Shown here one piece after another: positions 17,488 to 58,692 of a stretch of 64,000 bases of DNA. Numbering within the stretch: position 1 is the stretch's first letter; each line of letters opens with the position of its first letter. Source of the stretch: an uncultured Planctomycetaceae bacterium (GTDB lineage: Bacteria > Planctomycetota > Planctomycetia > Gemmatales > Gemmataceae). Position numbers and translations under genes: made by a program. The stretch spans positions 1 through 64,000 of the forward strand of contig CALARU010000287.1 in assembly GCA_937888715.1 (NCBI GenBank). The letters are read 5' to 3'. The notes under the pieces were generated by a model that was not told the DNA's origin, searched no databases, and saw only the letters and a list, made by a program, of their open reading frames with translations.

Positions 17488-20205
17488 ATGAGTTCATGCT
17501 ACCTTGTTTCTCAATATGCGATTCCAACCACCAATAACCTTTATCTTGATGAAGAATTAGTGGCCCAAATTTTAAATGGCTACCTTTCGCTTTGGCACCC
17601 TAATGCCATTGCAAAATCAATTAAGCCCCCCAAAATAATCAGCTACCAAGACACCCACGAAATCGATGACCAATCGCTCGTATGCTTAGTGGACTTATCA
17701 AATAACGAATCGCATGGGATAATAAACAAGAAAACTTTTTCTGCTTGTTCAGAAAAAATGGAAACAGTCCAAAAGCTTAGCGATCTATTAAAAGCCCTTC
17801 ACAATGAAACAATAGAAACTCAAGCACCAGAATTGGATTATTTTTTTGCCGTGGGCTTTGCATACCAGATGGTAAATAGCCTTTTCGAAGCCATGCAGCA
17901 CGAAAATCTTCTTTCGCATGAATCAATCTGGGAAGAATGCGTCCAAGCTGCCAACAAATATCTTCAAAGCGATTGGGAAGGTGCAAAAGAAAATTTACGA
18001 AGCGCTTGTGCACTAATCCAAAGTGGCAGAGAAGTATTACACTCATCAAGTATCCACCTATTAGATTTCGCACCAATTAAAAATCTAGCAGGACTGCTAA
18101 TTCCAAATATTGAAACCGGTAATCCTGTAAATATCATTGCCAGCGCCAAAGAATTATCCGAATTGCCTCCCCTTGAATTAGAAAAAATCACAGACTGGTT
18201 TAATTCCGAGCAGGTTGAAATTTGTGGTGGATTATTCAATGACCATCCTGAAACGGTTGGCCCTCTTACTTCACGAATCTGGAATTTAAAAAAAGGAAGA
18301 GAAACACTTCTTAATCTTGTGGGTAAGGAAGTCAAAGTATTCGCCAAAACCACCCAAGGCCTTTCTGCTGACACCCCAAGAGTTTTACATCTTGCAGGTT
18401 TCAGCAAGGCATTACTAATGCCTCATGGGGAAAACAATATCCCGACATTTCGCGGGCCAGTGTTTAGCTGGTCATCAAGTATTGGAAGGCAGATTGAAAC
18501 TTTTTGCAGAGAACCTTTTAGCTCTTCAACAAATCACACCTTTTTTCATTTGGCCTTCCACCTAGGAAAACTATTGCAGCAAGATAGTTCACCCACGTTG
18601 GCATTCTTTAAAACAACCTCAAATAGTTCGATTTTTTACAATTACTTATTAAAAGCCAACAGCCTCGCACCAATATTCGGTAACTGGCTAACCATGTCAA
18701 ATTATCTTCATGAAGTCTACCCTTCAGAATATCCAGGCCCTATTTCTCAAGATGATTTCAAAACTGAGACCCTGCAACTTCACCCCAATGCACCAATTTC
18801 AGGGCAAATCAATCATTTAAAAAACCGCAGAACACTAGATTGCGCCAGCAACATTGCTTCTATCCTGAATGTTTTAGGTTCGAACCAACCAGAAGCCCTA
18901 CGCCAATTTGCAAATGACTGGACAGAAACGGAAGCCCAAACAGAACAAAATCCGTTGACTATTAACCAAGCGCCTTCTGAACTATTCCAAAGGGCAGGGG
19001 CGTTACTTGCAGAGCGTATCCTCCAACGAGGCGAAGATGGAAAAAATGGAATACTTCTTTTAAACCCTTGCAGCTTCACCCGAAGAATTGGAATGGAAAC
19101 AGAAAGCACATCCGGGCCACAAGCTGCCAAGGGTGTGCTTGCAGCTAACCAATCGATGGACAAATCGGAATCCATTATTGAAGTTCCAGGCTTGGGGTAC
19201 ACCTGGGTTCCACTTGCAGATACAGCAAACCCTCCAAAATTCTCCAACAAGTTTAAACTTGCAGACGAAAACTCTGTGAGAAACGAATTTTTTGAAGCCG
19301 AGATCGATCGAATTTCTGGGGGATTAAAGGCCTTTCGTGATCTAAAAACCAGAGCAAACCGACTTAGCCAACAACTTGTTGCCAATCTAGGCAGCACCAT
19401 GAAAGCTGATACCATTCGTATCAGTTCCACTGGCCCACTCTTTGGCGAAATACAATCCGAAGGCACCATCACAGGCACTAACCAAGAAGTCATCGCAAAA
19501 TTCAAACAGACCATCCGTGCATGGCTAGGTAGGCCTATGCTGGAACTCAACATCGAGATAAATCCAACCGAACCTTTACGAGGTGATCGTTGGTCCAATT
19601 ACATCGCATCTAGGTTTGCTTGGCCCCATGACCAAGTAACCATGCATCGTGGACACGAAGGAAGGGTTGCATCTACCAACAATCTACGCACGGAAAGTTG
19701 TGACTTTATTGAATGGAAGTGGGGGCCCAGAAAAACTTTCCTCTTTACCAAGGGGCTTTCCTACTTCGAAAAACAAGGCGATAGTAAGATCGACACCCTT
19801 TTAATAACAGAGGGAGAAAATCAAACACACTTCAGCATGGGACTGAGCATGGATCGCGATCACCCATTCCAAATGGCGATGGCCTTGGATTCTCCGATTT
19901 ACATACAAAAAGTTAGTAAAGGCGCGCCGCCAACAGGGCCGACTGGATGGTTTTTTCACATTGATGCACCCAACCTGGTACTACACCAGATTTCCTTCAA
20001 AGCCGACGAATCATCTGCCTACCTTCTTTTGGAAGAAACAGAGGGGTTTGCAACGCCCTGTGATATCCGTTGCGTTAAAACTCCCAAGCGGGCGTGCTTC
20101 CTTGATTTGCAGAACAATGACCAAGGCGATCTCTCTATTCGTGATGATAGCGTTACCATTTATCCGGAATCTAACGGCCTTATGCTCCTAAAGATCGATT
20201 TTTAA
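17488..20205 (+). CDS. GH38-like protein lacking catalytic motifs (probable pseudoenzyme)
   Basis: This is a 905-residue protein. The C-terminal half has a pattern resembling the GH38 beta-sandwich (NEFFEAEIDRISGGLKAF at about residue 600, followed by the long beta-rich region). The middle resembles the helical and (beta/alpha) part of alpha-mannosidases: EQVEICGG at 241, then GRETLLNLVGKEVKVFAKTTQGLSADTPRVLHLAGF at 270-305. In GH38 the equivalent of residues 284-291 is a WxxDxFG-type motif with the nucleophile Asp; here it is FAKTTQGL. The N-terminal HxD metal motif is also missing (SCYLVSQYAIPTTNN). Catalysis is therefore unlikely. There is no signal peptide. It may bind glycans or be a structural scaffold; the assignment rests on pattern only. 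Confidence 0.65.
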   Translation: MSSCYLVSQYAIPTTNNLYLDEELVAQILNGYLSLWHPNAIAKSIKPPKIISYQDTHEIDDQSLVCLVDLSNNESHGIINKKTFSACSEKMETVQKLSDLLKALHNETIETQAPELDYFFAVGFAYQMVNSLFEAMQHENLLSHESIWEECVQAANKYLQSDWEGAKENLRSACALIQSGREVLHSSSIHLLDFAPIKNLAGLLIPNIETGNPVNIIASAKELSELPPLELEKITDWFNSEQVEICGGLFNDHPETVGPLTSRIWNLKKGRETLLNLVGKEVKVFAKTTQGLSADTPRVLHLAGFSKALLMPHGENNIPTFRGPVFSWSSSIGRQIETFCREPFSSSTNHTFFHLAFHLGKLLQQDSSPTLAFFKTTSNSSIFYNYLLKANSLAPIFGNWLTMSNYLHEVYPSEYPGPISQDDFKTETLQLHPNAPISGQINHLKNRRTLDCASNIASILNVLGSNQPEALRQFANDWTETEAQTEQNPLTINQAPSELFQRAGALLAERILQRGEDGKNGILLLNPCSFTRRIGMETESTSGPQAAKGVLAANQSMDKSESIIEVPGLGYTWVPLADTANPPKFSNKFKLADENSVRNEFFEAEIDRISGGLKAFRDLKTRANRLSQQLVANLGSTMKADTIRISSTGPLFGEIQSEGTITGTNQEVIAKFKQTIRAWLGRPMLELNIEINPTEPLRGDRWSNYIASRFAWPHDQVTMHRGHEGRVASTNNLRTESCDFIEWKWGPRKTFLFTKGLSYFEKQGDSKIDTLLITEGENQTHFSMGLSMDRDHPFQMAMALDSPIYIQKVSKGAPPTGPTGWFFHIDAPNLVLHQISFKADESSAYLLLEETEGFATPCDIRCVKTPKRACFLDLQNNDQGDLSIRDDSVTIYPESNGLMLLKIDF

Positions 20206-26133: not shown

Positions 26134-27372
26134 TCAAACAACTCCGCCATTAATTGCCAAAGTCTGGCCATTAACAAAAGAAGACTTATCCGAAAAAAGC
26201 CACCTTGCTGCGCTAGCAATGTCTTGTGGTACACCCCAGCGTTGCAAAGGGCACTCTTCTTTGGCTTTTTGTTGCCAATATTCAGAAGCAGTTTCACCCC
26301 ATGAAGTCTTTATCCAGCCTGGGGCCATACAGTTGACCCGGACTTCTGGCGCTAAAGAAAGAGAAAGGCTTCGACTGAAATTCATGATCCCACCTTTGAT
26401 AGCGGCAAACATTTCACCACTATCCCCCTTGAACCCGGTAATCGCTTGATCCCACCCAGTGGTAAGGAGGACACCCTTGCCAGAAAATTTCATTCGTTTT
26501 CCAAATTCCCTTGCAAGAATAAAGGTTGACTGCAGATCAACTTGAATAAGTTCATTAAATTTCTGATCAACATTCATCTGCGAAATGGCTCCCGTAAGAA
26601 TGTCAGCACCTGCATTTAACAAAACGCCATCTAATCCATTAATATCATCCCATGCCTGTTTAAAGAGGGAAGAGCGCCCCTCTTCATTTTTTAAATCCGC
26701 TTGAATATAACGAGAAAAACCCGAACAATTGGCTGCAAAGTCTAGATAAGCATTGATTTTATCCAAGGGCTTTCTGCCATGAAAAACAACCTTAGCCCCA
26801 CCAAGAGCAAGTTCAATCGCACAGGCCAAACCAATCCCGGAAGTGGATCCAGTTACCAATATTTTCTTACCTTCCAACTCTCGAGCGGATGAAGATTGAA
26901 CCGGAACAATCCCCTCCAGATCAAAAAGGATCTCAGCAATAGTTCGATTGAAAATCGGGTGAATAGCAAAAGGTGCAATTTCAAACAATGGCCTTAAAAC
27001 AAAAGATCTCGTATGCATTCTCGGGTGAGGAACCTGCAATTCACCTGAAAGTAACTGATCATCAAACAAGAGCAAATCAAGATCAATAGTTCGTGGCCCA
27101 TTAAGAACCTCACGAACCCTGCCAAGCTCTTCTTCAACGGCACGCATTGTTTCAAGCAATTGCTGCGGGTCAAGATTGCAAACGATCGCAGCGGCCCCAT
27201 TAATATAATCAGACTGATCCGCAGGCCCCCCAACTGGTAAAGTTTTATACAAACTTGAAACAGCAAGAATTTTGCCATCGGCTTTTTGTTCCAGGCAACG
27301 GAGTGCGTCGAAAATCAAAGCTTGGGAGTCACCCAAATTACTTCCAAAACCCAAGTATGCAAGATGAGTCAT
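26134..27372 (-). CDS. folK: Fusion of HPPK (FolK) with a short-chain dehydrogenase-like domain
   Basis: The first 160 residues are 6-hydroxymethyl-7,8-dihydropterin pyrophosphokinase of folate synthesis: YLGFGSNLGD at the start, VSSLYKTLPVGGP and the diagnostic NGPRTIDLDLLLFDD. Residues about 166-412 are an SDR-fold domain with the NAD(P)-binding TGSTSGIG and LLNAGAD. Its catalytic tetrad is degraded: YxxxK reads FxxxK (Phe322, Lys326), the Ser region reads LLTTGWDQ and the active-site Asn position reads VDLQS. The C-terminus keeps a normal SDR substrate-loop pattern (NCMAPGWIKT, FVNGQTLAINGG). An FolM-like pterin reductase origin is attractive, but activity is doubtful. It lies 10 bases after the toroid gene. 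Confidence 0.85.
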   Translation of the reverse strand: MTHLAYLGFGSNLGDSQALIFDALRCLEQKADGKILAVSSLYKTLPVGGPADQSDYINGAAAIVCNLDPQQLLETMRAVEEELGRVREVLNGPRTIDLDLLLFDDQLLSGELQVPHPRMHTRSFVLRPLFEIAPFAIHPIFNRTIAEILFDLEGIVPVQSSSARELEGKKILVTGSTSGIGLACAIELALGGAKVVFHGRKPLDKINAYLDFAANCSGFSRYIQADLKNEEGRSSLFKQAWDDINGLDGVLLNAGADILTGAISQMNVDQKFNELIQVDLQSTFILAREFGKRMKFSGKGVLLTTGWDQAITGFKGDSGEMFAAIKGGIMNFSRSLSLSLAPEVRVNCMAPGWIKTSWGETASEYWQQKAKEECPLQRWGVPQDIASAARWLFSDKSSFVNGQTLAINGGVV

Positions 27373-33607: not shown

Positions 33608-33643
33608 AAAAGGCTCGCTTCAAAATTGAAGCGAGCCTTTTTT
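33608..33643 (+). terminator. Rho-independent terminator after the DUF1549/DUF1553 gene
   Basis: Stem AAAAGGCTCGCTTCAA/TTGAAGCGAGCCTTTT with a very short loop and T-run, one of the strongest hairpins in the window. Confidence 0.92.
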
Positions 33644-33711: not shown

Positions 33712-36700
33712 ATGGGATCAGTTTTAGTTTGGCCCAATGTTCGAAAATTAAAAGGTTCTAAGGTAAGAGTTGTCATAGCTTTGAGAAAATTGAGTTGCCT
33801 GATAATTGGTTTATGCTTCCTTCTTGCATTTCCTTCACTTGGAAAATGCGAGTTGCCTGATAATCTGCCTACTTATCAAATTCAAATGAATCTTGATACG
33901 ACCAAACATATGGTTGATGTGAACCAAAAAGCAACTTGGACCAACCGCTCAGATAGTCCAGTAAGCAAGATCGTATTCGTAACGCATTCGAACTATATTG
34001 TGCCCGATAGCGATATAGCATTGATGGCAAAAACGCTTGAACTATTAAGGCTAAATCCAGGTGATTCACTGGGGGCAAAAACGCCCTGCCTAGAAATAAA
34101 AACTGTGAGCCTAATAGGCAAAGATGGGAGCACCCGAAAACTAAAACACCAATTTTCAGGTCCTACAAAAACAACGATGGAATTTGAGTTAGACCAACCT
34201 TTGGCGAAAGGTGAAAAAGTAACCTTTGATTTAGAATTTAGAATGCGATTACCTGAAAAGCAAGGGCGCTGGGGACACTGGAAAAATGTAACTTTCTTAA
34301 CCAATTGGCTTCCTATTTTCGCTTATCACAAGCCTGATTGGCATACGGAAAACCCCAGCGATACTGAACAAGGATGGAAACCAACTCCTTTCGTACCCTG
34401 GCATCAGCCTTTTTATAATGAAGCAGGAATGTATGATGTCACTGCAACACTGGATAGTGATCAGCAAATTGCCAGCAGTGGTGTAATCGTAGGAGAAGAA
34501 AAGCTTGCTGATGGAAGAAAGAAAGTTCGATTAGAAGCAAAAGGAACAAGGGATTTTGCTTTTCTATGCTCAACACGATTTAAAATTCTTGAAACGGAAA
34601 TAAAACTCCCTGGCAGAGAAACACCCCTTAAAGTAAAAATCCAAGCATTCGAAGAACATGCGTTTTACGCAAAAGAATTCCTGCGAATTGTCTGTGAATG
34701 CATGGTTACCTACAGCCTTTGGTTTGGCCCATATCCATACCCGGAATTTACCATTGCCGAATCCTATTTTGGCTGGAATGGTAACGAGTGTGGATCGCTG
34801 GTGATGATAGATGATCGCATTTTTTCCATGCCTCACTTTGCAAAGCGTTACGCAGAATATCTCATCAGCCACGAAGTATGTCATCAATGGTGGTACAACC
34901 TTGTAGGCACGGATGGCTATCGCGAAACTTGGATGGATGAAGCCCTCGCAACCTACTTCAGCCATCGTTTTTTAAACCAAACTCGTGGAAAAAACAATGA
35001 GTTACTCGAGTACCCTGATTCATTAAAATGGCTGCCAAATATAAAGCGCGAAGATTACAGAATGAATGGTTTTTATGGTTCGGTTGGCAGAGGAGATAAC
35101 ACCTCAATACTCCAGCCAATGGATAAATTCGGGCATGTGGTGACTCTTTTCAGTATGTGCTACGACAAAGGCGCAAAAATTGTCGAAATGATTGAATCCC
35201 GAATAGGCGAACAAGCATTCCTAGATGTCATGCGAGGCGTTCGCAAAAAATACGAATACAAGGTGATGCATGTTAGCGATTTCCAAAAAGAACTAGAAGC
35301 ACAAACAGGAAAATCGTGGGAGGATTTCTTTGAAAAATGGCTAAAGGGAGCCGGTTTGACTGATTGGAATCTAGAGTCTGTAAAAATAAATGATGCACCC
35401 TTAGCTCGAAAAATTTTGCCACTCACTCTGCGCTCTTCTGCAAACCCAAAAAATCAAAAAACCACTGTAACTGTAATTATTAAACAAAACGCTGAATATA
35501 GTGAACAAACCTATCTAGGGTTTGCTATGGGAAAGTCTGATGAGTATTCCATTCGAATACCGATTTTACCCGCAGGCGGGAATTATGGAATTGATGATCC
35601 ACCTGCAACCGTTGAAAATCTTGCTCCAGATACTATTAGAGTCACTGTAGACTTACCGGACGTACCAACCCAAATTGCAATTGATCCAGATTCTATCATT
35701 GTCGATAAAAACCCTTCCAATAACTACTGGCATCACAGCCCAAGATTTCGATTAACGCCTTTGTACACTTTTGTTGATGAAACGTCCCTTACCAACTCCT
35801 ACGACCGATGGAATTTTAATTTTGGTCCATGGCTTTACATGAAAAGTTATGATGATGTCTGGTATAGTCGGGCAACCATGGTAGGCTTACGAGCAGGAGC
35901 ATACCGATCGCAAGAATTTTCAGGTGGGCTTTATACCGCATATCGAACCGATTACCGTGATTTTATTGCAGGTATCGATGGGCTTTTCACTCACTGGCCC
36001 GATTCTCCATTCCAATTTGGTTTTAATGCTGAAAGGCGTTTTTATACTTTCTATGAAGGAAACAACGAGGCGACTCGTGCCTCAGTATTTGGTAGATATG
36101 TATTTATGGAACACCCTAGCCTTTACCTTCTCCCTTCAAAGTTTATCGATGTATTTGGTTCTTTCCACGACAACTTTCTTCCAGATCCTGTGCAAACTGC
36201 CCCAGGAGCACAGCGTTTTCAACATATGACCACGGCTGGACTTCATTATCGCATTAATTACCTTACCCCATATTGGGACCCCGAAGGTGGTTACCAATTC
36301 GATGCAGTTTATGAAGCTGGGCAAGCTCTTTTAAATGAATATGCGACCGTACAGAAAGTATGGGCACAAGCTTCAACTGTTCATTATTTACCCAATCCAT
36401 CAGGCTTACTAGATTATCTTCCAGGTGAAAAACCCGTTTTAAATAAAATGGCCAACTGGGTTGCAGACACACGATTAGCAGTCCGGGCATTTGGTGGAAC
36501 CTCTGTTCCTTCTTACGGACAATTTTTTACCATGGGTGGTAGTGAAATGTTTCGTGCCTTCGACCTAGCGCAAAGGCAGGGAAATACAGCCTGGGTAGGA
36601 AGTGCGGAACTGCGTTTTCCAGTTTCTCGAAACACCTCTGTTGACGCTGTTGATCATCTGTTTTCACTTAAAAACACTTACTTGGCTCTTTTTTACGATG

Positions 36701-36885
36701 TAGGCAATACTTATGTGAATAGTCAAGCACTTGGCTCGACTGCCCAAGGAGTTGGGGTGGGCCTTCGGTGCGATGTTTCATTCATGAGTTTTGTAGAAAA
36801 AATGCTACTTCGTTTTGACGCTGCACAAGCCATCCATCAAGGTACTGGGACCCAATTTTGGTTTGGCGTAAACCAACCTTTTTAG
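33712..36885 (+). CDS. M1-type aminopeptidase fused to an Omp85-like beta-barrel
   Basis: This 1057-residue protein has an N-terminal hydrophobic signal (about 24-43, before LGKCELPD). Residues about 50-570 are an M1 (gluzincin) metallopeptidase: zinc motif HEVCH at 387-391 and Glu410, exactly HEXXH-X18-E, plus a Trp-rich flank (HQWW). The usual GxMEN exopeptidase loop reads GNECGSL. From about 669 onward the sequence becomes aromatic-rich with alternating strands, and the end (GQFFTMGGSEMFRAF, VGSAELRFPV, GVGVGLRCDV, final Phe) is typical of the BamA/Omp85 C-terminal barrel. A peptidase tethered to the outer membrane is the natural reading. The start is uncertain; no strong ribosome site. 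Confidence 0.85.
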   Translation: MGSVLVWPNVRKLKGSKVRVVIALRKLSCLIIGLCFLLAFPSLGKCELPDNLPTYQIQMNLDTTKHMVDVNQKATWTNRSDSPVSKIVFVTHSNYIVPDSDIALMAKTLELLRLNPGDSLGAKTPCLEIKTVSLIGKDGSTRKLKHQFSGPTKTTMEFELDQPLAKGEKVTFDLEFRMRLPEKQGRWGHWKNVTFLTNWLPIFAYHKPDWHTENPSDTEQGWKPTPFVPWHQPFYNEAGMYDVTATLDSDQQIASSGVIVGEEKLADGRKKVRLEAKGTRDFAFLCSTRFKILETEIKLPGRETPLKVKIQAFEEHAFYAKEFLRIVCECMVTYSLWFGPYPYPEFTIAESYFGWNGNECGSLVMIDDRIFSMPHFAKRYAEYLISHEVCHQWWYNLVGTDGYRETWMDEALATYFSHRFLNQTRGKNNELLEYPDSLKWLPNIKREDYRMNGFYGSVGRGDNTSILQPMDKFGHVVTLFSMCYDKGAKIVEMIESRIGEQAFLDVMRGVRKKYEYKVMHVSDFQKELEAQTGKSWEDFFEKWLKGAGLTDWNLESVKINDAPLARKILPLTLRSSANPKNQKTTVTVIIKQNAEYSEQTYLGFAMGKSDEYSIRIPILPAGGNYGIDDPPATVENLAPDTIRVTVDLPDVPTQIAIDPDSIIVDKNPSNNYWHHSPRFRLTPLYTFVDETSLTNSYDRWNFNFGPWLYMKSYDDVWYSRATMVGLRAGAYRSQEFSGGLYTAYRTDYRDFIAGIDGLFTHWPDSPFQFGFNAERRFYTFYEGNNEATRASVFGRYVFMEHPSLYLLPSKFIDVFGSFHDNFLPDPVQTAPGAQRFQHMTTAGLHYRINYLTPYWDPEGGYQFDAVYEAGQALLNEYATVQKVWAQASTVHYLPNPSGLLDYLPGEKPVLNKMANWVADTRLAVRAFGGTSVPSYGQFFTMGGSEMFRAFDLAQRQGNTAWVGSAELRFPVSRNTSVDAVDHLFSLKNTYLALFYDVGNTYVNSQALGSTAQGVGVGLRCDVSFMSFVEKMLLRFDAAQAIHQGTGTQFWFGVNQPF

Positions 36886-37107: not shown

Positions 37108-40100
37108 ATGAGCAATAATGAATCAAACAGCATCAAGAACCTTGGTATTTCTAATTCAAAAGCTTCGTCTTACCCACCAAGTAATCTAGGTAAAATCATG
37201 ATTGAAACTTACATTGAGAAAACCACTACCAATCCATCATGGTTTAAAAAACTAGGTTTTGCATCATCGCTAAGCTTGGCACTAATAGGCGTCCCGACAA
37301 TTGCAGAAGCTGCGGTAGGCACCAGCATCCTTCCGGCAATTACTTGGTTTACTCCTGGAATCCCAAACAAAGCAAGTATCGCATTAAACCAAGCAATCGA
37401 AACATACCGCAGGGGCGACTACGAAGAAGCAGACAAATCCTTTAAAGAAGTTGAATCTCGTCAGAAAGATTTACTTCCCGCAGAAGCAGATGATTTCAAG
37501 AAACTGTATGAAGCGAATAAAAAAGCTTTAAAGGCCCGCATGGAATCAACCTCCACCCTAGATATTGCAGAAGATCTAGTGGGAAAGAAACAATTTTCTG
37601 CTGCGACTGATTTGACCAAAAAAATTGCTTTTGACGAACAATACCTTCGTGAATCAGATAAAATTCGATTCAAAAACCTACAAGAAAGCATCAAGAACAA
37701 AAATGTAGCAGGAATAAACGAAATTCAAATTGACCCAAATGAGCTTAAACTTTCAGAATCAAAACCAATACCATCAATCAAGGTATCAGAAACCAATTCA
37801 TCAACAATTACTGCAGATCAAGTTCGGGCCGTGATAGCACTGGGAGACCTTGAAAAAGCAGAGGGAATGATAAGTGAAGTAGCGACAAGCGGCATACCTG
37901 AAACAGACACCCAAGCTAAATTAAAAGCAGAACTTCAAAAAATAAAGCAAGACCCCAAAGCATTACTCGGCCTAGCTCGTAAAAAATTCACGAACAAAGA
38001 GTTTGACCACGCAGAATCTCTTGCAAAAGCAGCAGAAAAATCTGCTTACACTTGGACATTTGCACTATCAAGCGACTCTCCTTCAAAACTTTTAAAAGAA
38101 ATTCAAGGAGCCAAGCTTAAAGCCGATTCAACATTGTTAGATACAAAAACTTTAGTCAAAGAAAACTCCGTAAAACCAGAACTAACCATTACTCCCAAGG
38201 CTTTGCCTGCATTAAATGCAGAAGATTCAAATGCCACTTCGCAATCAGTAAAAACAGAGGTAAGCACAGGAAGCACCGCAGCGGCAAGAAACCTGCTTCG
38301 CGATGCTAGAAAAGCCTTAACAGAAGGAAACGCAGAAAAAGCAAAGAAGCTGAACGACCAAGCCAAAGCGATGAAACCAAGTTTAAATTGGTGGGAAGAC
38401 AACCCAGAAAGAATTCAAAGTGATATCCTTCGTTCGGAAGGAAAATCAATGACCGAACAAGCAAGCAAGGATGCACCTAAGGAAAACGAAGATCCAAGGC
38501 AACTATTGCGCAGGGGTCGCAAGATGTTGACGGAAAACAAGACGGATGAAGCAACACGATTGATGCTTCGCGCTAAGGCTGCTCCCGGAGCCAAGTGGGG
38601 CCTATTCGAAGATTCACCTGATAAACTTCGCGCAGAAATCGAAAAATTACAAGCAAAGAAAGACAAGGAAGAGTCTGTAAAAGTATTAGCAGAAGCAAGA
38701 AAACTATTTGAACAAGAAGATTTTGAATCTGCAACCAAAGCAGCATATAAGGCACAACAGTTACACGGCCCCTACAATGTTTGGGAAATTTCAGATCGCC
38801 CACAACGACTGATAGCGGAAATCGAAACATCCAAACTCAAAGCAAAGAAGAATGGCGCTACTGCAAAGAAAAACACGCCTAAAGACGAAACAAACTCAAA
38901 TGACCCAGCAATGATAGCCAAAGCTCAAGCATGCTTAAAAGAAGCAAGAATTGAACTTGAAGCTGGTAACCCGGAGAAAGCTGCAGGTCTGGCTTTCATG
39001 GTCAAAGGCATGAAAGTAAAACCTGAAAGCCTGGGTGGCGATACACCTGATTCGCTATTGAAAGACATTGAAAAAAATCGATCTAAAACAGTAGCAAACA
39101 AAAATATGCCCGCTGAAACCAAAACAACAGCACCTGAAATCACAACCGCGCCAGTAATTACCCCTGCAGTAGTTACTGCCCCAGTGGTTATTCCTTCACT
39201 TCCAACCCCAGAAAATGACAAGGCAAAAACGGTGGCATTGTTGATGGAAGCCCGCCAACTACAATTAGCTGGTAACTTGGTAGGTGCCCGCATCAAAGGA
39301 ATTGAAGCCCAGAAGCAAGGGATAATTTTTCAACCCAATGAAGACAGCCCTGAACAACTTTTATTGCAATTAAGTTCAAGTGCAAGAAACCAGATTGATG
39401 ATCTTATCACCCAAGCAACCCGCAGCATGAACAGTAGTGATAGTAACGATAAAAAGGAAGAAACTGCAAATAAAGCGCTTGAAAATGCAATTAGTCTTTC
39501 AAAATCTTTTGGCCAGGATACTGCAAATATTGAAGCAAAAAAATTGCAATTAGGATTGGTTAAATCCAAGGTTCCAGGCAGTGCAACGATTGCAAGCGAA
39601 TCGATGGCAAAATCAAACCAAGGCAAGATGATGCTTGAAAAATCTCGCTTAGAGCTTCGCAGCGGTCAATTGGTCGCAGCAAGAAAACTTGCAGTTGAAG
39701 CATACCAAGGAACTTATGGAGTCAAGGAAGAAGCCGCATCTGTACTTCGCAGCATTGATATTGAAGATGTGAATCAAAAAATGCTTGAAACTAGGCGCAC
39801 CTTTGATGCAGCTTTGTCCGCATATAACCGTAAAGATTACGAACAATCAAAGACAATGATTTCAACATTGACTGAGAAAAACCTTGATAAGGAACGCCAG
39901 CAGAAATTGAAAGAAATATTGATGACTGCAGAAATGCAACCCAAGGAAAAGAGTGCTATTTCTCTGGTTAAGGGCACATCTGAAATTCGCACAAAACCAT
40001 CTGCTCCAGACAACAATTCAAACACCCCAGTCAAGCAAAATGAAGATGGGGAAATTGATCTTCTTGAAGCAACCAATCAGCTTCGTGAAGTTAAGTTTGG

Positions 40101-42441
40101 CCAAATGAGGCAACAAAGTTTGGATCTACAGCGCGAAGCTATGGAAAAATTCCAAGCTGGGCAAACCGATATCAGTATTGAAATGCTTACAGAATACTTG
40201 AACGAACTCAACAGCAACGATCTTGAACCAGGCAAAATGGCATTTCTAAGAAGACCAGTCGAATCAAGACTCCAACATTTCAAGCTTATGAAAGCTCAAA
40301 AAGAAATGCTTGCCAAGGATGGTGGGCAAAAAGATAAGATCAATGCAATCGGGCAGAAACAACTTGCTGATGATAACAAGCATAAAAAAGTTGCAGACCT
40401 GATGAAGCAATTCAATCTGAACTTCAAAGAAGGCAAATACCTCGAAGCTGAAAGCTATGCCATGAGGGCACATGAATTAGATCCAGATAATGCCATGGCT
40501 GCTGCAGGCATGAGCATGGCCAAGACTCAAAGAAGCATCAATGTTGCAAAGAAGCTTAAATCTGACAAGGAAACATTCTTCCTGGATGGGCTTAACGCTA
40601 CTGACAAAGTGGGCCCAGCCTTGGAAATGGATAAGCCACTTGATACTAATCCAGAAATGGCTGATCGCCGTAATAAACGCAAAAACCTTACTTCCATCAC
40701 CAGCACCACAAGGAAGAGTGAAAAAGAAAAGGAAATTGAAAGCAAACTTAGCATGCCAGTTAATCTCAATTTCAGCAACATCCTACTGAAGGATGCAATT
40801 GAAGATCTTCGAAGCTTTTACGGCATCAACATTGTTCCTGATATGCCCGCTTTGGAACAAGAAGGTATTAGCCTCGACAGGCCTGTAAGCCTAAAACTAG
40901 AACAAGTATCACTTAAGAGTGCTTTGAATCTTCTGCTGCATAGCGTCCATCTGACCTATGTAATTAAAGATGAAGTTCTTCAGATAACTACAGAATCCCA
41001 CGCAAGGGGTAAGCTTCAGACAGTAACCTATCAAGTTGCAGACTTGGTGATCCCTGTTGAAAACTATGTCAATCCCTTGCTTACAAACTCTCTTTCGCCG
41101 ATCCTTGGGATCTCTGCCAATCAACAACCTTCCAATAGCAGTGCTACCACACCATTGATGAACACAAATAGCATGACAGGGGGCACACCAACAGGCACGC
41201 CATCTGGAACATCTACCAATGGTAATGTTTCAACAACCAAGAAAAGCAATCAGACTATGGAGGAAATGCTGATTAAGCTATTAACCAGCACAATTTCTCC
41301 CCAAGCATGGAACAATATGGGTGGCCCTGGAACGATTGAGTATTTCCCACTGACCATGTCTTTGGTTATCAATCAATCGCCCGATATTCAAGAACAAGTT
41401 GCAGATCTTCTTACCGCACTACGAAGATTGCAAGATCAGGAAGTTGCAGTTGAAATACGCTTCATCAGTATCGCTGAAGATTTTTACGAACGCATTGGTG
41501 TAGATTTTAATCTTAACATCAAGACGGACAAAAACACGCAACGATTTGAACCCCAGATTCAATCTGGGCAGTATAAACCCGCAGGCTATATTAATGATCC
41601 AAACTTTGATCGCATGATTGCTGGCATCACGCCCTCTGGTAATTTTACCAGCGACCTTGATATCCCAATCAAACAATCATCTTACCCACTTGCAATGCCC
41701 TCTTTTGGTGGTTACTCAGGTTTGCCTGGGGCTGGCGGCCTTGCAATGGGTTTAGCGTTTCTTAGTGATATCCAAGTCTTCCTTTTCATGGAAGCAGTTC
41801 AAGGTGATCGAAGAACCAATGTTATGCAGGCACCTAAGTTAACTATGTTTAACGGTCAAAACGCCAACATTATTGTTGCAGAAAACCAGTTCTTTGTGAC
41901 AGGTGTGAATGTGTCGACCCTTATCAACGGCAATATCACCTTTGCTCCACAAGTTCAGGCTTTCCCTTTTGGTGTTTACATGAATGTACAGCCCCTTATT
42001 TCTGCAGATCGCAGAACGGTAAGACTTAACATTCCTGTTACCTTGACAAACTTGGTACCTGGGCCAGTATCACTGTTTCCTGTTGTGGTACCGATTTTCC
42101 CAAGTAGCAGCGCACTCTCTACCAACCCCGGTGATCCAATCACCTTCACCCAATACATCCAACAACCTGTTATTAATACGATTGCAGTACAAACAACAGT
42201 GTCTGTTCCGGATGGTGGAACGGTGCTGATGGGCGGTATTAAGCGCTTATCGGAATCTAGAAATGAATATGGCCCGCCAGTTTTAAGCAAGATCCCTTAC
42301 CTTAATAGGCTTTTCAGGAACAATTCTTACGGAAGAGAAGCTGAAAGCTTGCTGATCATGGTAACTCCTAGAATTATCATTCAAGAAGAAGAAGAGTTCT
42401 ACCAGACTGGCTACAAGGCTCCACCAAATGTGAATCCTTAA
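37108..42441 (+). CDS. Repeat-rich secretin (type II/III secretion-like outer-membrane pore)
   Basis: This 1777-residue protein has an extended N-terminus, with about 48 polar residues before a hydrophobic signal segment (about 50-68). Next is a TPR-like helical region, then seven degenerate repeats of 52-58 residues (nucleotides 37951-39780), then coiled-coil-like helices. A secretin N-domain-like unit lies at about 1215-1300 (VNLNFSNILLKDAIEDLRSFYGINIVPD), and the GspD-type secretin core at about 1420-1760 contains VPDGGTVLMGG and KIPYLNRLFRN. The C-terminus carries LLIMVTPRIII. The pore would exit the outer membrane; no pilus or GspE/F genes lie nearby. It has its own promoter and terminator. 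Confidence 0.88.
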   Translation: MSNNESNSIKNLGISNSKASSYPPSNLGKIMIETYIEKTTTNPSWFKKLGFASSLSLALIGVPTIAEAAVGTSILPAITWFTPGIPNKASIALNQAIETYRRGDYEEADKSFKEVESRQKDLLPAEADDFKKLYEANKKALKARMESTSTLDIAEDLVGKKQFSAATDLTKKIAFDEQYLRESDKIRFKNLQESIKNKNVAGINEIQIDPNELKLSESKPIPSIKVSETNSSTITADQVRAVIALGDLEKAEGMISEVATSGIPETDTQAKLKAELQKIKQDPKALLGLARKKFTNKEFDHAESLAKAAEKSAYTWTFALSSDSPSKLLKEIQGAKLKADSTLLDTKTLVKENSVKPELTITPKALPALNAEDSNATSQSVKTEVSTGSTAAARNLLRDARKALTEGNAEKAKKLNDQAKAMKPSLNWWEDNPERIQSDILRSEGKSMTEQASKDAPKENEDPRQLLRRGRKMLTENKTDEATRLMLRAKAAPGAKWGLFEDSPDKLRAEIEKLQAKKDKEESVKVLAEARKLFEQEDFESATKAAYKAQQLHGPYNVWEISDRPQRLIAEIETSKLKAKKNGATAKKNTPKDETNSNDPAMIAKAQACLKEARIELEAGNPEKAAGLAFMVKGMKVKPESLGGDTPDSLLKDIEKNRSKTVANKNMPAETKTTAPEITTAPVITPAVVTAPVVIPSLPTPENDKAKTVALLMEARQLQLAGNLVGARIKGIEAQKQGIIFQPNEDSPEQLLLQLSSSARNQIDDLITQATRSMNSSDSNDKKEETANKALENAISLSKSFGQDTANIEAKKLQLGLVKSKVPGSATIASESMAKSNQGKMMLEKSRLELRSGQLVAARKLAVEAYQGTYGVKEEAASVLRSIDIEDVNQKMLETRRTFDAALSAYNRKDYEQSKTMISTLTEKNLDKERQQKLKEILMTAEMQPKEKSAISLVKGTSEIRTKPSAPDNNSNTPVKQNEDGEIDLLEATNQLREVKFGQMRQQSLDLQREAMEKFQAGQTDISIEMLTEYLNELNSNDLEPGKMAFLRRPVESRLQHFKLMKAQKEMLAKDGGQKDKINAIGQKQLADDNKHKKVADLMKQFNLNFKEGKYLEAESYAMRAHELDPDNAMAAAGMSMAKTQRSINVAKKLKSDKETFFLDGLNATDKVGPALEMDKPLDTNPEMADRRNKRKNLTSITSTTRKSEKEKEIESKLSMPVNLNFSNILLKDAIEDLRSFYGINIVPDMPALEQEGISLDRPVSLKLEQVSLKSALNLLLHSVHLTYVIKDEVLQITTESHARGKLQTVTYQVADLVIPVENYVNPLLTNSLSPILGISANQQPSNSSATTPLMNTNSMTGGTPTGTPSGTSTNGNVSTTKKSNQTMEEMLIKLLTSTISPQAWNNMGGPGTIEYFPLTMSLVINQSPDIQEQVADLLTALRRLQDQEVAVEIRFISIAEDFYERIGVDFNLNIKTDKNTQRFEPQIQSGQYKPAGYINDPNFDRMIAGITPSGNFTSDLDIPIKQSSYPLAMPSFGGYSGLPGAGGLAMGLAFLSDIQVFLFMEAVQGDRRTNVMQAPKLTMFNGQNANIIVAENQFFVTGVNVSTLINGNITFAPQVQAFPFGVYMNVQPLISADRRTVRLNIPVTLTNLVPGPVSLFPVVVPIFPSSSALSTNPGDPITFTQYIQQPVINTIAVQTTVSVPDGGTVLMGGIKRLSESRNEYGPPVLSKIPYLNRLFRNNSYGREAESLLIMVTPRIIIQEEEEFYQTGYKAPPNVNP
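37951..39780 (+). repeat. Seven degenerate protein repeats inside the secretin gene
   Basis: Units start near 37951, 38281, 38491, 38671, 38902, 39225 and 39622. Each follows the pattern hydrophobic-x-x-A-R-K/R, 15-20 residues with A-A-x-x-A-x-x-A helices, then D-x-P-x-x-L-L/I-x-x-I. The DSPxxL-like end is best seen in units 1, 3 and 6. They differ too much at DNA level to be recent copies. Confidence 0.7.
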
Positions 42442-47321: not shown

Positions 47322-49280
47322 ATGCTAAAGAGAGATCTAATTCTTGGGACAGCAGGCCACATTGACCATGGAAAAACAAGCCTTGTAAAAGCACTTACAG
47401 GGGTTGATTGCGATCGATTGCCTGAAGAAAAAGCTCGGGGCATTACCATTGATCTGGGCTTTGCAAATCTTGATTTGCCAGGTTTCCGAATTGGAATTGT
47501 GGATGTTCCTGGGCATGAAAAATTCATCAAGAATATGCTTGCTGGAGCCACTGGCTTTGATATCGCTCTTATTATTATTGCAGCAGACGATTCCGTAATG
47601 CCTCAAACAAGAGAGCATTTAGAAATACTTAAATTTTTAAAAATCAAACATGCGATTGTAGCTTTGACCAAATGTGATCTTGGTGATTCAGACACACTCG
47701 AGGTCGTGGAAATGGAAATCCGCGAACTGCTCGAGGGGTCATTCTTTGAAAACGCTCCGATAATTCAAACGTCAGCTATTACTGCAAAGGGAATAACAGA
47801 ACTTAAGAACAAAATCGCTGAGATTTGCTCTGGTATTGAAGCAAAAAAAACGCAGCAATTTTTCCGTCTGCCGATCGATCGATCCTTTGCAATTCACGGC
47901 TACGGTGCAGTTGTAACTGGAACGGTATATTCAGGCATAGTGAATGAAGGGGATGAGTTAGAACTTTTCCCTCAACAAAAAATGGTCCGAGTTCGTTCTT
48001 TGCAATCTCACGCAAAAAATATCAAAGCATCGTCAGAGGGGCAGCGGTGTGCAATCAATTTGGCTGGAATCGACCATCATGAAGTAGTGAGGGGACAAGA
48101 ACTTGCCACGCCTGGATCTTTGTTCCCAGCGAAAATTATTTCCGTATTACTGCATTGCGCCAAGGATAGAAAAAAGCCATTAAAGCACCGATTGCCTGTC
48201 AGGTTGCATCTGGGAACTTCTGAAATCCTTGGAACCTTATCCATATTGGAAGATGATACAATTGCACCGGGAAAACCCGGCCTTGCTCAATTGTTTTTAA
48301 AAGAACCAGTGACAGGTTCTTGGGGACAACCCTTTGTAATCCGGAATAGTTCTGCCACAGCAACACTTGGTGGCGGAAACATCATTCAACCCTTTGCAGG
48401 AAAAATTCGCAGGAGACATTCGCACTCCATTGAAATGCTGAATAATCTTGCCTCAGGACCAGATATCTCAAAATTAAAAGCGGCGGCATGGTTTGCAGGT
48501 TTTAAAGGAATCAATGAAGAATCATTGCCTCTGTTGACCGGTATTGATTCAATCGCCATCAAAGAACAATTAAAAGTTGGATTGGCAGATGGAGTGTTAT
48601 TTGAAATCAACATATCCACAGGCAAAAAAAAGCTTATAGACAATCAATTGATCACTGATTTAAAAACAAAAACCATCACAATACTTGAATCTCTCCATTT
48701 AGAAAACCCGTTATTATCTACACATGAACGCCAACTCATCACCATGGAATTAGCCTACGTGGGCGACGACCAATTGGTTCAGGATTTGATTGACCAGATG
48801 ATCAAGCAAAAAATATTGACTGGAAACAAAAGGCGGATTGGGCTAACTGCTTTCAAACCAAAATTATCAAACAATCAAAGAAAACTACTCGAGAAAATCC
48901 ACACCGCTTATCAAGAAGCAAAGTTCGCTCCGCCAACCATGGAAGACTTCATCAATCACCTTGGAGGGCAAAAAATTCAATTGCAAGAACTTTTCAACCT
49001 TTGCGTTCTCGAAGGCAAATTAGTCTTCCTACAAGACAATCTATACCTCGAATATGAGGTCGAACATGAAATGCGGCGCATAGTTGCAAACGCACTTGAA
49101 AATGGAAAAGGTTTGACTGTTGCGGAAATACGAGATTTGTTGCAAACTTCCAGAAAATATGCTGTGCCTTTCTGTGAACATCTCGATAAGATCGGAACAA
49201 CAAGAAGGGAAGGCGACCTAAGGTTCCTTCCTTTAAAGCAGATAAATAGCCAGCAAGAAAACTCAGATCATGACCAATAA
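47322..49280 (+). CDS. selB: Selenocysteine-specific elongation factor (SelB)
   Basis: SelB carries Sec-tRNA to in-frame UGA codons marked by a SECIS hairpin. The 652-residue protein has an EF-Tu-like GTPase with GTAGHIDHGKTSLV, the DVPGHEKFI switch and TKCDLG in the base-binding loop. Domains II and III follow (about 180-370), then winged-helix repeats in the C-terminal third that would bind the mRNA hairpin. It overlaps selA by 11 bases, so the pair is translationally coupled. No selC tRNA, selD or selenoprotein gene was recognised in the window. The start follows the PVC dehydrogenase stop by 14 bases. Confidence 0.96.
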   Translation: MLKRDLILGTAGHIDHGKTSLVKALTGVDCDRLPEEKARGITIDLGFANLDLPGFRIGIVDVPGHEKFIKNMLAGATGFDIALIIIAADDSVMPQTREHLEILKFLKIKHAIVALTKCDLGDSDTLEVVEMEIRELLEGSFFENAPIIQTSAITAKGITELKNKIAEICSGIEAKKTQQFFRLPIDRSFAIHGYGAVVTGTVYSGIVNEGDELELFPQQKMVRVRSLQSHAKNIKASSEGQRCAINLAGIDHHEVVRGQELATPGSLFPAKIISVLLHCAKDRKKPLKHRLPVRLHLGTSEILGTLSILEDDTIAPGKPGLAQLFLKEPVTGSWGQPFVIRNSSATATLGGGNIIQPFAGKIRRRHSHSIEMLNNLASGPDISKLKAAAWFAGFKGINEESLPLLTGIDSIAIKEQLKVGLADGVLFEINISTGKKKLIDNQLITDLKTKTITILESLHLENPLLSTHERQLITMELAYVGDDQLVQDLIDQMIKQKILTGNKRRIGLTAFKPKLSNNQRKLLEKIHTAYQEAKFAPPTMEDFINHLGGQKIQLQELFNLCVLEGKLVFLQDNLYLEYEVEHEMRRIVANALENGKGLTVAEIRDLLQTSRKYAVPFCEHLDKIGTTRREGDLRFLPLKQINSQQENSDHDQ

Positions 49281-50667
49281 AAACCTCCGAAACCTACCTG
49301 CCGTGCATGTTATCCTAAAAACAACTGCCATCCAGGAGCTTATTCCTTCTCTTGGCCAAGAAAATGTTGTTGCAGAAATCAGGCATTATCTCGATGAACT
49401 TCGAAATCTATTAAGCAAGGACAACAATCAAAAATTAGAAACTTCGCCTGAATCCATTGGGATAGAAGTTAGCAATCGACTGGCTACGCATTATAAACCA
49501 AAACTAAGAAAAGTAATTAATGCGACCGGTATTGTTTTACACACCAATCTTGGTCGTTCGCCAATGGCAGAAGAAGCTGCTAAAGCTGCATACATGGCTG
49601 CGATAGGTTATATCAATCTTGAAGTAGATATTGAAACGGGAAAGCGATCATCCAGACAGGATTCTGTAAGAGAATGGATTTGCAAGCTACTTAAATGTGA
49701 ATCAGCCACGGTTGTTAATAATTGCGCAGCTGCCACTATCATTGTTTTAAAAGCTGTTGCTGAAAACAAGGAAGTAATTATTTCCCGTGGCCAATTAATT
49801 GAAATCGGCGGCAGTTTCCGGCTTCCTGAAATTATGAATGTCAGCAACGCTATCATGAAGGAGGTTGGTTCCACCAATATAACTCGGATCAAAGATTACG
49901 AAGCTGCAATCGGGGCAAACACCGGCGCTTTGTTAAGGGTGCACACCAGCAATTACAAAATCAATGGCTTCACTGAATCTGTAACAATTGAAGAGCTAAT
50001 TGCGCTGGGAAAAAAGCACAATATACCTGTAATTGATGATGCTGGCAGCGGAGCGGTAGTGCCGCTTAATTGCAAAGGTTTTGGTGAAGAACCAAACCCT
50101 GTTACCAGTATGGCACTTGGTGCAGATTTGACTCTATTCAGCGGGGATAAACTGCTGGGCGGGCCCCAAGCTGGGATTATCGCAGGCAAAAAAGAATGGA
50201 TTAATAAAATCGAAAGCGACCCTCTGATGCGTGCTTTTAGGCTCGACAAAATGAACCTCGCAGCACTCGAACAAACTTTATTGCTTCACCTTAATTCAAG
50301 CACCGTAAGCCAAAAAATTCCAACCTTAAAGATGCTCTCCATTTCAATGGACGAACTACACCAAAAGGCTCTTCAATTAGAATCTAAATTAAAACAAATC
50401 GGTTGTTGCGATAAGATTCAGGCAAAAATAAGCGAAGGGTTTGCAGGAGGCGGAACCTTACCAGACCAGCAAATGCCTACTTGGGTTGTTGACTTTTCAT
50501 CTCCACATCTTGACACACAAACTTTATCACACAAGCTGAGAACCTCTCAACCTTCGCTATTTACTCGAATAAAAGATGACAAAATTGTTTTAGATTTACG
50601 AACCCTGAACAACGATGAAATTGACATTGCAGTTCAAGTTATTCTTAATGCTCTAAAAACAATTTAA
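49270..50667 (+). CDS. selA: L-seryl-tRNA(Sec) selenium transferase (SelA)
   Basis: This PLP enzyme converts Ser-tRNA(Sec) to Sec-tRNA(Sec) using selenophosphate. The 465-residue protein has the PLP lysine Lys294 in [16 protein letters not shown], the family N-terminal region ([19 protein letters not shown]) and the DDAGSG motif (257-261). It probably forms a decamer as in bacteria. It overlaps selB at its start and shares a 4-base overlap with the convergent NagB-like gene at its end. Confidence 0.97.
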
Positions 50668-57264: not shown

Positions 57265-58692
57265 TTACTTGCCTGCAGTCTGTAAACCTGGAGAAATTGC
57301 AATTTTTTTAAGTACCACGGCGTCTGCCGTTTTCCAAATAATAACTTCTCCATTCCAAGCACCACCAGCAATTAAAGATCCATCTTTATTAAACGCCAAA
57401 GAAAGAACCTGATCTGTTAAACCTGCAAATGTTTTCACCGCAGCACCAGATTCAGCATTCCATGTTTTAATGGTATTATCTGAACCACCTGTAGCGATAA
57501 GATTAGCTTTGTCATTACCTACAACTTTAAGAATTTGGCCCGCATGAGCGCCAATAACGCGAACTTGTTTACCTGCTCTGTCTCCTTCAAGCCCAAAAAG
57601 CCGGAGTTGTTTATCATCTCCTGCGGAATAGCAATTCTTACCATCTGCCTTGAAAAATACACCATAAACAGAATTTTGATGGTCTGGGAAAGTCGCTAAT
57701 GATTCTTTGGATGCAAGGTTCCAAACTTTCGCAGTTTTATCTCTGCTGGAACTGGCGAGAAACTTACCATCTGGGGAAAAAGCTGCTGAAAAAACCCAAT
57801 CAGCATGATTTTCTATGGACTGTTCTAGCTTTGCATTTTCAATACCTGAACCAATATCCCAAACATGCAGAAGACGATCGCAGCCACCCGCTGCAAGTTT
57901 TTTACCATCGCTACTAAGGGCTAAGCAAAGTACCTCGTCATCAGCATCCAAAAGCTGTTTGAGCATGATTTTTTTATCGTTGACCCCGTCCAAGAATGAA
58001 ACGCCATCGTTTATTTTTCCTGATGCGGAGATATCATAAGCCCGAACATCGCCTTCTTCACCTGGTCGGCCTCCAGCTACGACAAGTTTGCCATCTGGAA
58101 GGAAAAGGAAAGCCATGGATCGACGGGCCCGGGTATTAATCCTTTTCTCTAATTTAGCGGTCTCAAGATCCCAAACTGTAATTTCATGATGACCACCAAC
58201 AACAATTTTTTTACCATCTGGAGAAAAGGCAATAGCTGTAGCAGCAACAGGGAAAGAGTACTTGGCAGAAGGAACTGGGGCCTTCCATCGAAGGCGTAAT
58301 TCTTTCAATAAATCCGCTTTTGCATCAACTTCCTTGTCGATTTTTGCGCCTTGCGCTACCCATTGTTCCAGAATCTTAATTTTTTCAGGGGAAAGGGCAT
58401 CACCGCTTTCCTTTGGTGGCATTCTTGATTTGTCGGTGGCTTTTAAAACATCGATAAAATAACTTTCATCCGGTTTTCCAACCACAATAGGGTCATCTTT
58501 GGTTCCACCATGCCTTAATGCCTCGTATTTGGTCATATCAAGCTTGCCTTTAGGGTTTTTTGAACCATGGCAAGCAAAGCAGTTTTCTTTCAAAATGGGG
58601 GCAACATCCTTGATAAAGCTGATGTTTTGACCATTTGCAACGCTAGAAATCAAGAAGGCACAAGCAACAAGTATAGATTTTGCAATTTTCAT
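57265..58692 (-). CDS. WD40-repeat protein with planctomycete-type cytochrome c domain
   Basis: This 475-residue protein has a signal peptide (about 1-21), a planctomycete cytochrome domain with CFACHG (Cys38, Cys41, His42) and a possible distal Met ligand (SRMPPKESGD), and then about seven WD40 blades (about 140-470, e.g. GHHEITVWDLETAKLEKRI, SSRDKTAKVWNLASKES, GGSDNTIKTWNAESG). It would sit in the periplasm. The propeller probably scaffolds a partner; no enzyme site is visible. It is divergent from the Aas-like gene, with a 264-base gap containing ATTGT motifs. Confidence 0.9.
   Translation of the reverse strand: MKIAKSILVACAFLISSVANGQNISFIKDVAPILKENCFACHGSKNPKGKLDMTKYEALRHGGTKDDPIVVGKPDESYFIDVLKATDKSRMPPKESGDALSPEKIKILEQWVAQGAKIDKEVDAKADLLKELRLRWKAPVPSAKYSFPVAATAIAFSPDGKKIVVGGHHEITVWDLETAKLEKRINTRARRSMAFLFLPDGKLVVAGGRPGEEGDVRAYDISASGKINDGVSFLDGVNDKKIMLKQLLDADDEVLCLALSSDGKKLAAGGCDRLLHVWDIGSGIENAKLEQSIENHADWVFSAAFSPDGKFLASSSRDKTAKVWNLASKESLATFPDHQNSVYGVFFKADGKNCYSAGDDKQLRLFGLEGDRAGKQVRVIGAHAGQILKVVGNDKANLIATGGSDNTIKTWNAESGAAVKTFAGLTDQVLSLAFNKDGSLIAGGAWNGEVIIWKTADAVVLKKIAISPGLQTAGK

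Follow-up and report, generated by a model that had tools for sequence, protein, structure and literature searches.

The reading frame at 33712..36885 (+) in the window, a 64,000-nucleotide stretch of planctomycete DNA, raises the question of whether a zinc aminopeptidase and an outer-membrane β-barrel are joined in one polypeptide and, if so, on which side of the outer membrane the enzyme would work. Our analysis favors an outer-membrane-anchored periplasmic aminopeptidase, a reading to which we assign a probability of roughly 0.68.

The frame encoding the fusion protein is open for 1057 codons and contains no internal stops. Its first ATG (33712), from which residues are numbered here, is not kept in close relatives and is replaced by ATA in two of them (L033 and L034). 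The stretch upstream of TTG 33781 carries frame-changing indels in relatives, while TTG 33781 itself is conserved. Together, these observations suggest that TTG 33781 is probably the true start, yielding a protein of 1034 residues that begins directly with its signal peptide. The signal peptides of relatives have AxA-type ends and display no consistent lipobox. A terminator-like hairpin stands between the upstream PSCyt gene and the fusion gene. The features of the locus are as follows, in order of position.

33608..33641 (+): terminator-like hairpin of the intrinsic type, 15 pairs and a T tail, kept in close relatives
33781..33849 (+): Sec-type signal peptide, residues ~24–46; hydrophobic helix at 22–38 in the model
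33859..34611 (+): M1 domain I, N-terminal and β-rich, residues ~50–300, from predicted secondary structure and Foldseek
34612..35361 (+): M1 catalytic domain II, helical, residues ~301–550, from the PF01433 match
34777..34788 (+): NGNE, residues 356–359, counterpart of the M1 GAMEN motif by alignment with glutamyl aminopeptidase
34870..34884 (+): HEVCH zinc-binding motif, residues 387–391; H387, E388, and H391 invariant in 93 of 93 members
34939..34941 (+): E410, third zinc ligand at the HEXXH-18-E position, invariant in 93 of 93
35161..35163 (+): Y484, which aligns with the M1 transition-state Tyr (Y-D/S-K-G) and never varies in 93 members
35365..35691 (+): M1 domain III, all-β sandwich of 8 strands, residues ~552–660, from the AlphaFold2 model, where it spans 552–657
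35692..35811 (+): conserved linker into the barrel, residues ~661–700, from the family alignment and the model
35812..36882 (+): 16-strand Omp85 β-barrel, residues 701–1057, from profile, predicted fold, and Foldseek
36388..36471 (+): periplasmic turn T5, carrying a helical insert specific to the lineage, residues 893–920, from the model
36535..36561 (+): loop-6 motif GGSEMFRAF between strands 11 and 12, residues 942–950 (FRAF at 947–950); R948 invariant in 93 of 93
36880..36882 (+): C-terminal Phe, the end signal of outer-membrane proteins, invariant in 93 of 93

We scanned the protein against Pfam and found that residues 339–543 match Peptidase_M1 (PF01433; E = 5.4e-19, 69.1 bits against a cut-off of 27.7); when the whole genome was searched with this family, the fusion protein was recovered at E = 8.3e-20. 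The match bears out the first-pass annotation, which had recognized a complete zinc peptidase in one frame from HEVCH at 387–391 and E410. Among solved proteins, the nearest sequence is glutamyl aminopeptidase (2e-9), followed by other M1 enzymes, and Foldseek searches with the full model retrieved the M1 enzymes ERAP1, ERAP2, IRAP, and APN (best E = 4.6e-26, with ~650 columns aligned). The GXMEN motif reads NGNEC in this protein and NGNE[C/G/A] in the family, such that the Glu is retained and the remaining letters differ. This residue, E359, aligns with the GAMEN Glu that binds the substrate N-terminus and is invariant in 93 of 93 members. Judging from these alignments, the M1 zinc site and catalytic residue set are complete and the enzyme is apparently catalytically intact. 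In ordinary M1 enzymes the β-sandwich is followed by a helical domain IV, which is common in the family but not required. The predicted structure of the fusion protein has no such domain; instead, the barrel comes after domain III and occupies the sequence position of domain IV.

A barrel had been proposed to start at about residue 669. The Omp85 barrel itself is upheld by PF01103, the predicted model, and Foldseek, but it starts near residue 701, and residues ~552–660 form the M1 β-sandwich. The full-length AlphaFold2 model (22 sequences; pLDDT 85.1, pTM 0.84) contains exactly 16 barrel strands between residues 701 and 1054, the strand number anticipated for this region, and the barrel modeled alone (54 sequences; pLDDT 90.0, pTM 0.85) displays the 16-strand pattern again. 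The full-length pTM suggests that the enzyme is packed against the barrel in a defined manner, and closure of the predicted barrel is judged from the pTM values together with the fold matches. When the barrel was compared to the PDB by Foldseek, the best 50 matches were all BamA or TamA (best E = 3.4e-7), with TM-scores to these proteins mostly in the range of 0.4–0.6 and query TM-scores of 0.40–0.53; when the same model was compared to viral proteins, a single match fell below 0.001. A soluble Ig-like or β-sandwich C-terminus is rejected by the AlphaFold2 models and by the Foldseek matches to BamA and TamA.

At the sequence level, detection of the barrel depends on how the search is made. A single-sequence hmmscan against Pfam returned no Omp85 or other barrel family for this protein, and a PDB sequence search with the lone barrel sequence gave chance matches only, a family profile being needed. 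In contrast, a PF01103 search of the whole genome recovered the fusion protein above the cut-off (25.2 bits against 24, E = 1.8e-5), so that both of the Pfam families expected of the two halves, PF01433 and PF01103, exceed their thresholds. The sole other PF01103 match in the genome is the real BamA, which has a POTRA-like N-terminus. Of 54 family barrels scanned one by one, 34 matched PF01103 (best E = 8.4e-12), and the profile built from these 54 barrels matched Fusobacterium BamA in the PDB (9ccg, E = 5.8e-5) and, weakly, TamA. An hhalign comparison to the genome's own BamA gave E = 9.1e-5 with a probability of 59% over 163 columns at the end of the protein. Profiles and predicted fold agree in identifying the C-terminal part as an Omp85 barrel.

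Details of the predicted barrel conform to this assignment. Loop 6 of BamA likewise sits between strands 11 and 12, and in the M1-Omp85 family this loop measures 26 residues in all 66 sequences compared. Its motif is FRAF in the window protein and FRGF or FRGY in most relatives; position 949 is Gly in 74 members and Ala in 19 of the 93 aligned, placing the window protein in the RA set. The other predicted extracellular loops are mostly short (3–17 residues), and periplasmic turn T5 is 28 residues long here versus a family median of 11. The BamA/Omp85-like end with a final Phe, already remarked on in the first-pass annotation, is a fixed feature of the family. Residues that never vary in the 93 aligned members include those of both halves: H387, E388, H391, E410, E359, Y484, R948, D996, and F1057.

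Omp85 proteins usually possess at least one POTRA domain, and a “noNterm” subfamily has no N-terminal extension of any kind. In the stretch that joins enzyme and barrel in the fusion protein, a Pfam scan at E≤1 detected no POTRA, and the two-helix POTRA pattern is absent from the predicted secondary structure of this region, in agreement with the initial impression that the two halves are joined without one.

The fusion is widespread among related planctomycetes, as had been thought worth checking. A match was obtained in 93 of 102 Gemmatales genomes, and 90 carry the family once three weak M1-only matches are dropped; at least 30 further genomes from three other families of the class carry the fusion at E below 1e-80. 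A scan of 84,980 species, keyed to motifs of this M1-Omp85 family, found 110 relatives. The 80 of these that were listed are planctomycetes, save for one or two whose bin labels are clearly mistaken; Limnoglobus roseus, Aquisphaera insulae, and Singulisphaera acidiphila are among the 80. No strong family member was found outside the class in a 343-genome sample of the phylum. Searches for mobile relatives returned none borne by viruses, and on plasmids they returned no full fusion, only M1 matches over the N-terminal half. An apparent barrel-only relative in one genome (G113) was considered as a split gene and rejected, as the contig ends there and the gene is truncated. Pairwise distances in the M1 and barrel halves are strongly correlated (r = 0.897 for 66 sequences, a value reached by 0 of 2000 permutations). 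Because the two halves diverge in step, the sequence data fit a single old fusion that has been inherited as one unit.

The surroundings of the gene are less constant. The upstream PSCyt gene stays adjacent in 4 of 71 loci, all from the closest relatives. Directly downstream, 37108-42441 (+) encodes a 1777-residue protein that has a secretin domain at its C-terminus, preceded by a long repetitive N-terminus, and this secretin gene adjoins the fusion gene in 8 of 71 loci, some at ~47% identity. Conservation of the neighboring genes mostly stops at near relatives, there is no general partner, and across the 71 loci no conserved operon partner hints at a substrate. Elsewhere in the window, selB and selA (selenocysteine-specific elongation factor and selenocysteine synthase) are adjacent at 47322-50667 (+). 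The genome thus probably uses selenocysteine, and some TGA-interrupted frames may be selenoproteins. HPPK, of folate biosynthesis, is joined to a short-chain dehydrogenase in one frame at 26137-27372 (-), a planctomycete cytochrome C (PSCyt1) domain is fused to WD40 repeats at 57268-58692 (-), and a 905-residue ORF at 17488-20205 (+) has no Pfam match at 1e-5.

We compared the fusion protein to known systems that share one or the other of its parts. The enzymes ERAP1/2, IRAP, and APN/PepN have domains I–III and the full catalytic set in common with it, but they carry GAMEN and a helical domain IV where the window protein has NGNE[C/G/A] and an Omp85 barrel. BamA and TamA share the 16-strand fold, the loop-6 RG/RA motif between strands 11 and 12, and the terminal Phe; the fusion protein differs in having a peptidase in place of POTRAs and short barrel loops. 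It lacks the several POTRAs that mark a BamA, and the POTRA-bearing BamA of this genome is a separate gene (G000:C177). The closest parallel in plan is to the patatin-like Omp85 proteins PlpD and FplA (type Vd), which likewise combine a signal peptide, an N-terminal hydrolase, and a C-terminal 16-strand Omp85 barrel in a single gene. However, PlpD contains a patatin phospholipase and one POTRA, whereas the window protein contains a zinc M1 aminopeptidase and none; the type Vd arrangement of patatin, POTRA, and barrel is not found here, and the resemblance to PlpD is one of plan only. The Pfam family PF00149 is that of calcineurin-like phosphoesterases. A PF00149 domain, there named a metalloprotease, is carried by the Omp85 “Metallo” subfamily (Heinz and Lithgow 2014, PMC4104836), which resembles the fusion protein in having a barrel with an N-terminal metal-dependent enzyme domain and differs from it in that the enzyme of the latter is a true M1 zinc peptidase (PF01433).

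Within the phylum, related ARRANGEMENTS from other planctomycete classes combine a Peptidase_MA_2-like domain, a PD40 propeller, and an Omp85 barrel (L171, L172, and L179), while in L174-L177 the propeller and Omp85 barrel were found and the peptidase domain was not detected. A HEXXH motif is present in only two of the Peptidase_MA_2/propeller/Omp85 proteins examined. These proteins are similar to the fusion protein in placing an MA-clan peptidase-like domain before a barrel with no POTRA detected, but the peptidase family is another one, often without HEXXH, a propeller intervenes, and the barrel similarity is remote. From sequence comparison, the joining of peptidase-clan domains to Omp85 barrels that lack a POTRA thus seems to recur in the phylum. 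A further ORF of 1604 residues (L178:335-5146) has an Omp85 barrel at its end, and Pfam identified no other domain in it.

We infer the location, activity, and substrate of the fusion protein from these features as follows. The Sec route would carry the protein across the inner membrane, and the cell's own BamA, which is present in the genome, would put the 16-strand barrel into the outer membrane. As both ends of a 16-strand Omp85 barrel are periplasmic, the M1 module is expected in the periplasm. Domains I–III with their intact zinc site would be placed at the periplasmic mouth of the barrel, the latter filling the place of the helical domain IV of ordinary M1 enzymes, and the module would strip N-terminal residues from peptides or unfolded chains arriving there. 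Its most likely role is nutritional, with the enzyme shortening peptides that come into the periplasm or are generated there; disposal of failed outer-membrane protein segments ranks second.

This reading has to be weighed against others. The assembly is fragmented (414 contigs), and two genes could in principle have been joined in assembly or annotation, or the frame could be open by chance. However, some 120 genomes carry the same fusion, among them chromosomes assembled as a single contig and isolates (Limnoglobus roseus and Singulisphaera acidiphila), both halves are conserved, and no stop interrupts them; conservation across genomes refutes an artefact, to which we attach a negligible probability. 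Planctomycetes do digest external polymers, and the first-pass annotation had envisaged a peptidase at the outer-membrane surface, possibly engaged in peptide uptake or shaving. Such a type Vd-like protein would pass its M1 module through or alongside its own barrel to digest external peptides or proteins, as was initially proposed for the secretion of patatin-Omp85 proteins (discussed in PMC4104836). The enzyme of PlpD, a protein made up of patatin, POTRA, and Omp85 barrel, had for years been regarded as exported, but it is reported, on the strength of protease sensitivity, cross-linking, and lipidomics, to stay in the periplasm (PMC11116518). The analogy is incomplete, since PlpD has a POTRA and the M1-Omp85 protein has none. 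Together with the even strand number and Omp85 topology, which leave the N-terminus in the periplasm, the retention of the PlpD enzyme argues against the surface placement. Furthermore, a module of about 600 residues, once folded, would not be expected to traverse a 16-strand barrel, the protein has neither a POTRA nor a translocation element, and shaving would require an extra translocation step to which nothing here points. We therefore regard surface display as improbable.

Envelope quality control would leave the enzyme in the same periplasmic position as the favored explanation and assign it a different role, that of trimming or clearing stalled outer-membrane proteins or signal-peptide remnants in the manner of BepA or DegP. 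This is suggested by the BamA/TamA character of the barrel, by the recurrence of MA-clan peptidase-like domains on Omp85 barrels elsewhere in the phylum (the Peptidase_MA_2, PD40 propeller, and Omp85 proteins), and by the periplasmic metallopeptidase BepA, which is reported to act on LptD at BAM (PMC8423444). On the other hand, the retained exopeptidase Glu (E359) suits N-terminal trimming and not endoproteolysis of barrels, and the protein offers no POTRA for handling clients, which leaves quality control a conceivable but rather unlikely role. The barrel might also act as a peptide pore with a built-in peptidase, its lumen feeding external peptides straight to an active site that it adjoins at the position of domain IV. 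In sequence order, the barrel does replace the helical domain that closes the cavity, and most of its predicted extracellular loops are short (loop 6 excepted). In Gemmata and Singulisphaera, BamA and LptD are present and TonB was not detected (PMC3422733), which makes peptide entry an interesting question and would call for other entry routes. Yet loop 6 normally blocks Omp85 barrels and is conserved here at a fixed length, and we consider a pore doubtful; if it were true, the protein would provide a peptide uptake route for planctomycetes in which TonB was not detected. An outer-membrane-anchored aminopeptidase working in the periplasm on the peptides that reach it remains our preferred explanation.

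Omp85 barrels have mostly been known for inserting or translocating proteins. The M1 and Omp85 parts of the protein belong to known families, and enzyme-Omp85 fusions are already a known kind; what is apparently new is the combination with M1, in which a barrel takes the place of domain IV and no POTRA is present. No description of an M1-Omp85 fusion was found in the literature searched, which includes few subscription papers, and the main text of a Tuwongella proteome study (PMC8567305) makes no mention of an aminopeptidase. A conserved, apparently catalytically intact peptidase on a POTRA-less barrel adds a new class of enzyme to the few enzyme-Omp85 fusions so far recognized. It shows that a membrane barrel can stand in for the C-terminal domain of M1 enzymes, and it offers a single-gene, testable handle on peptide handling at the planctomycete outer membrane.
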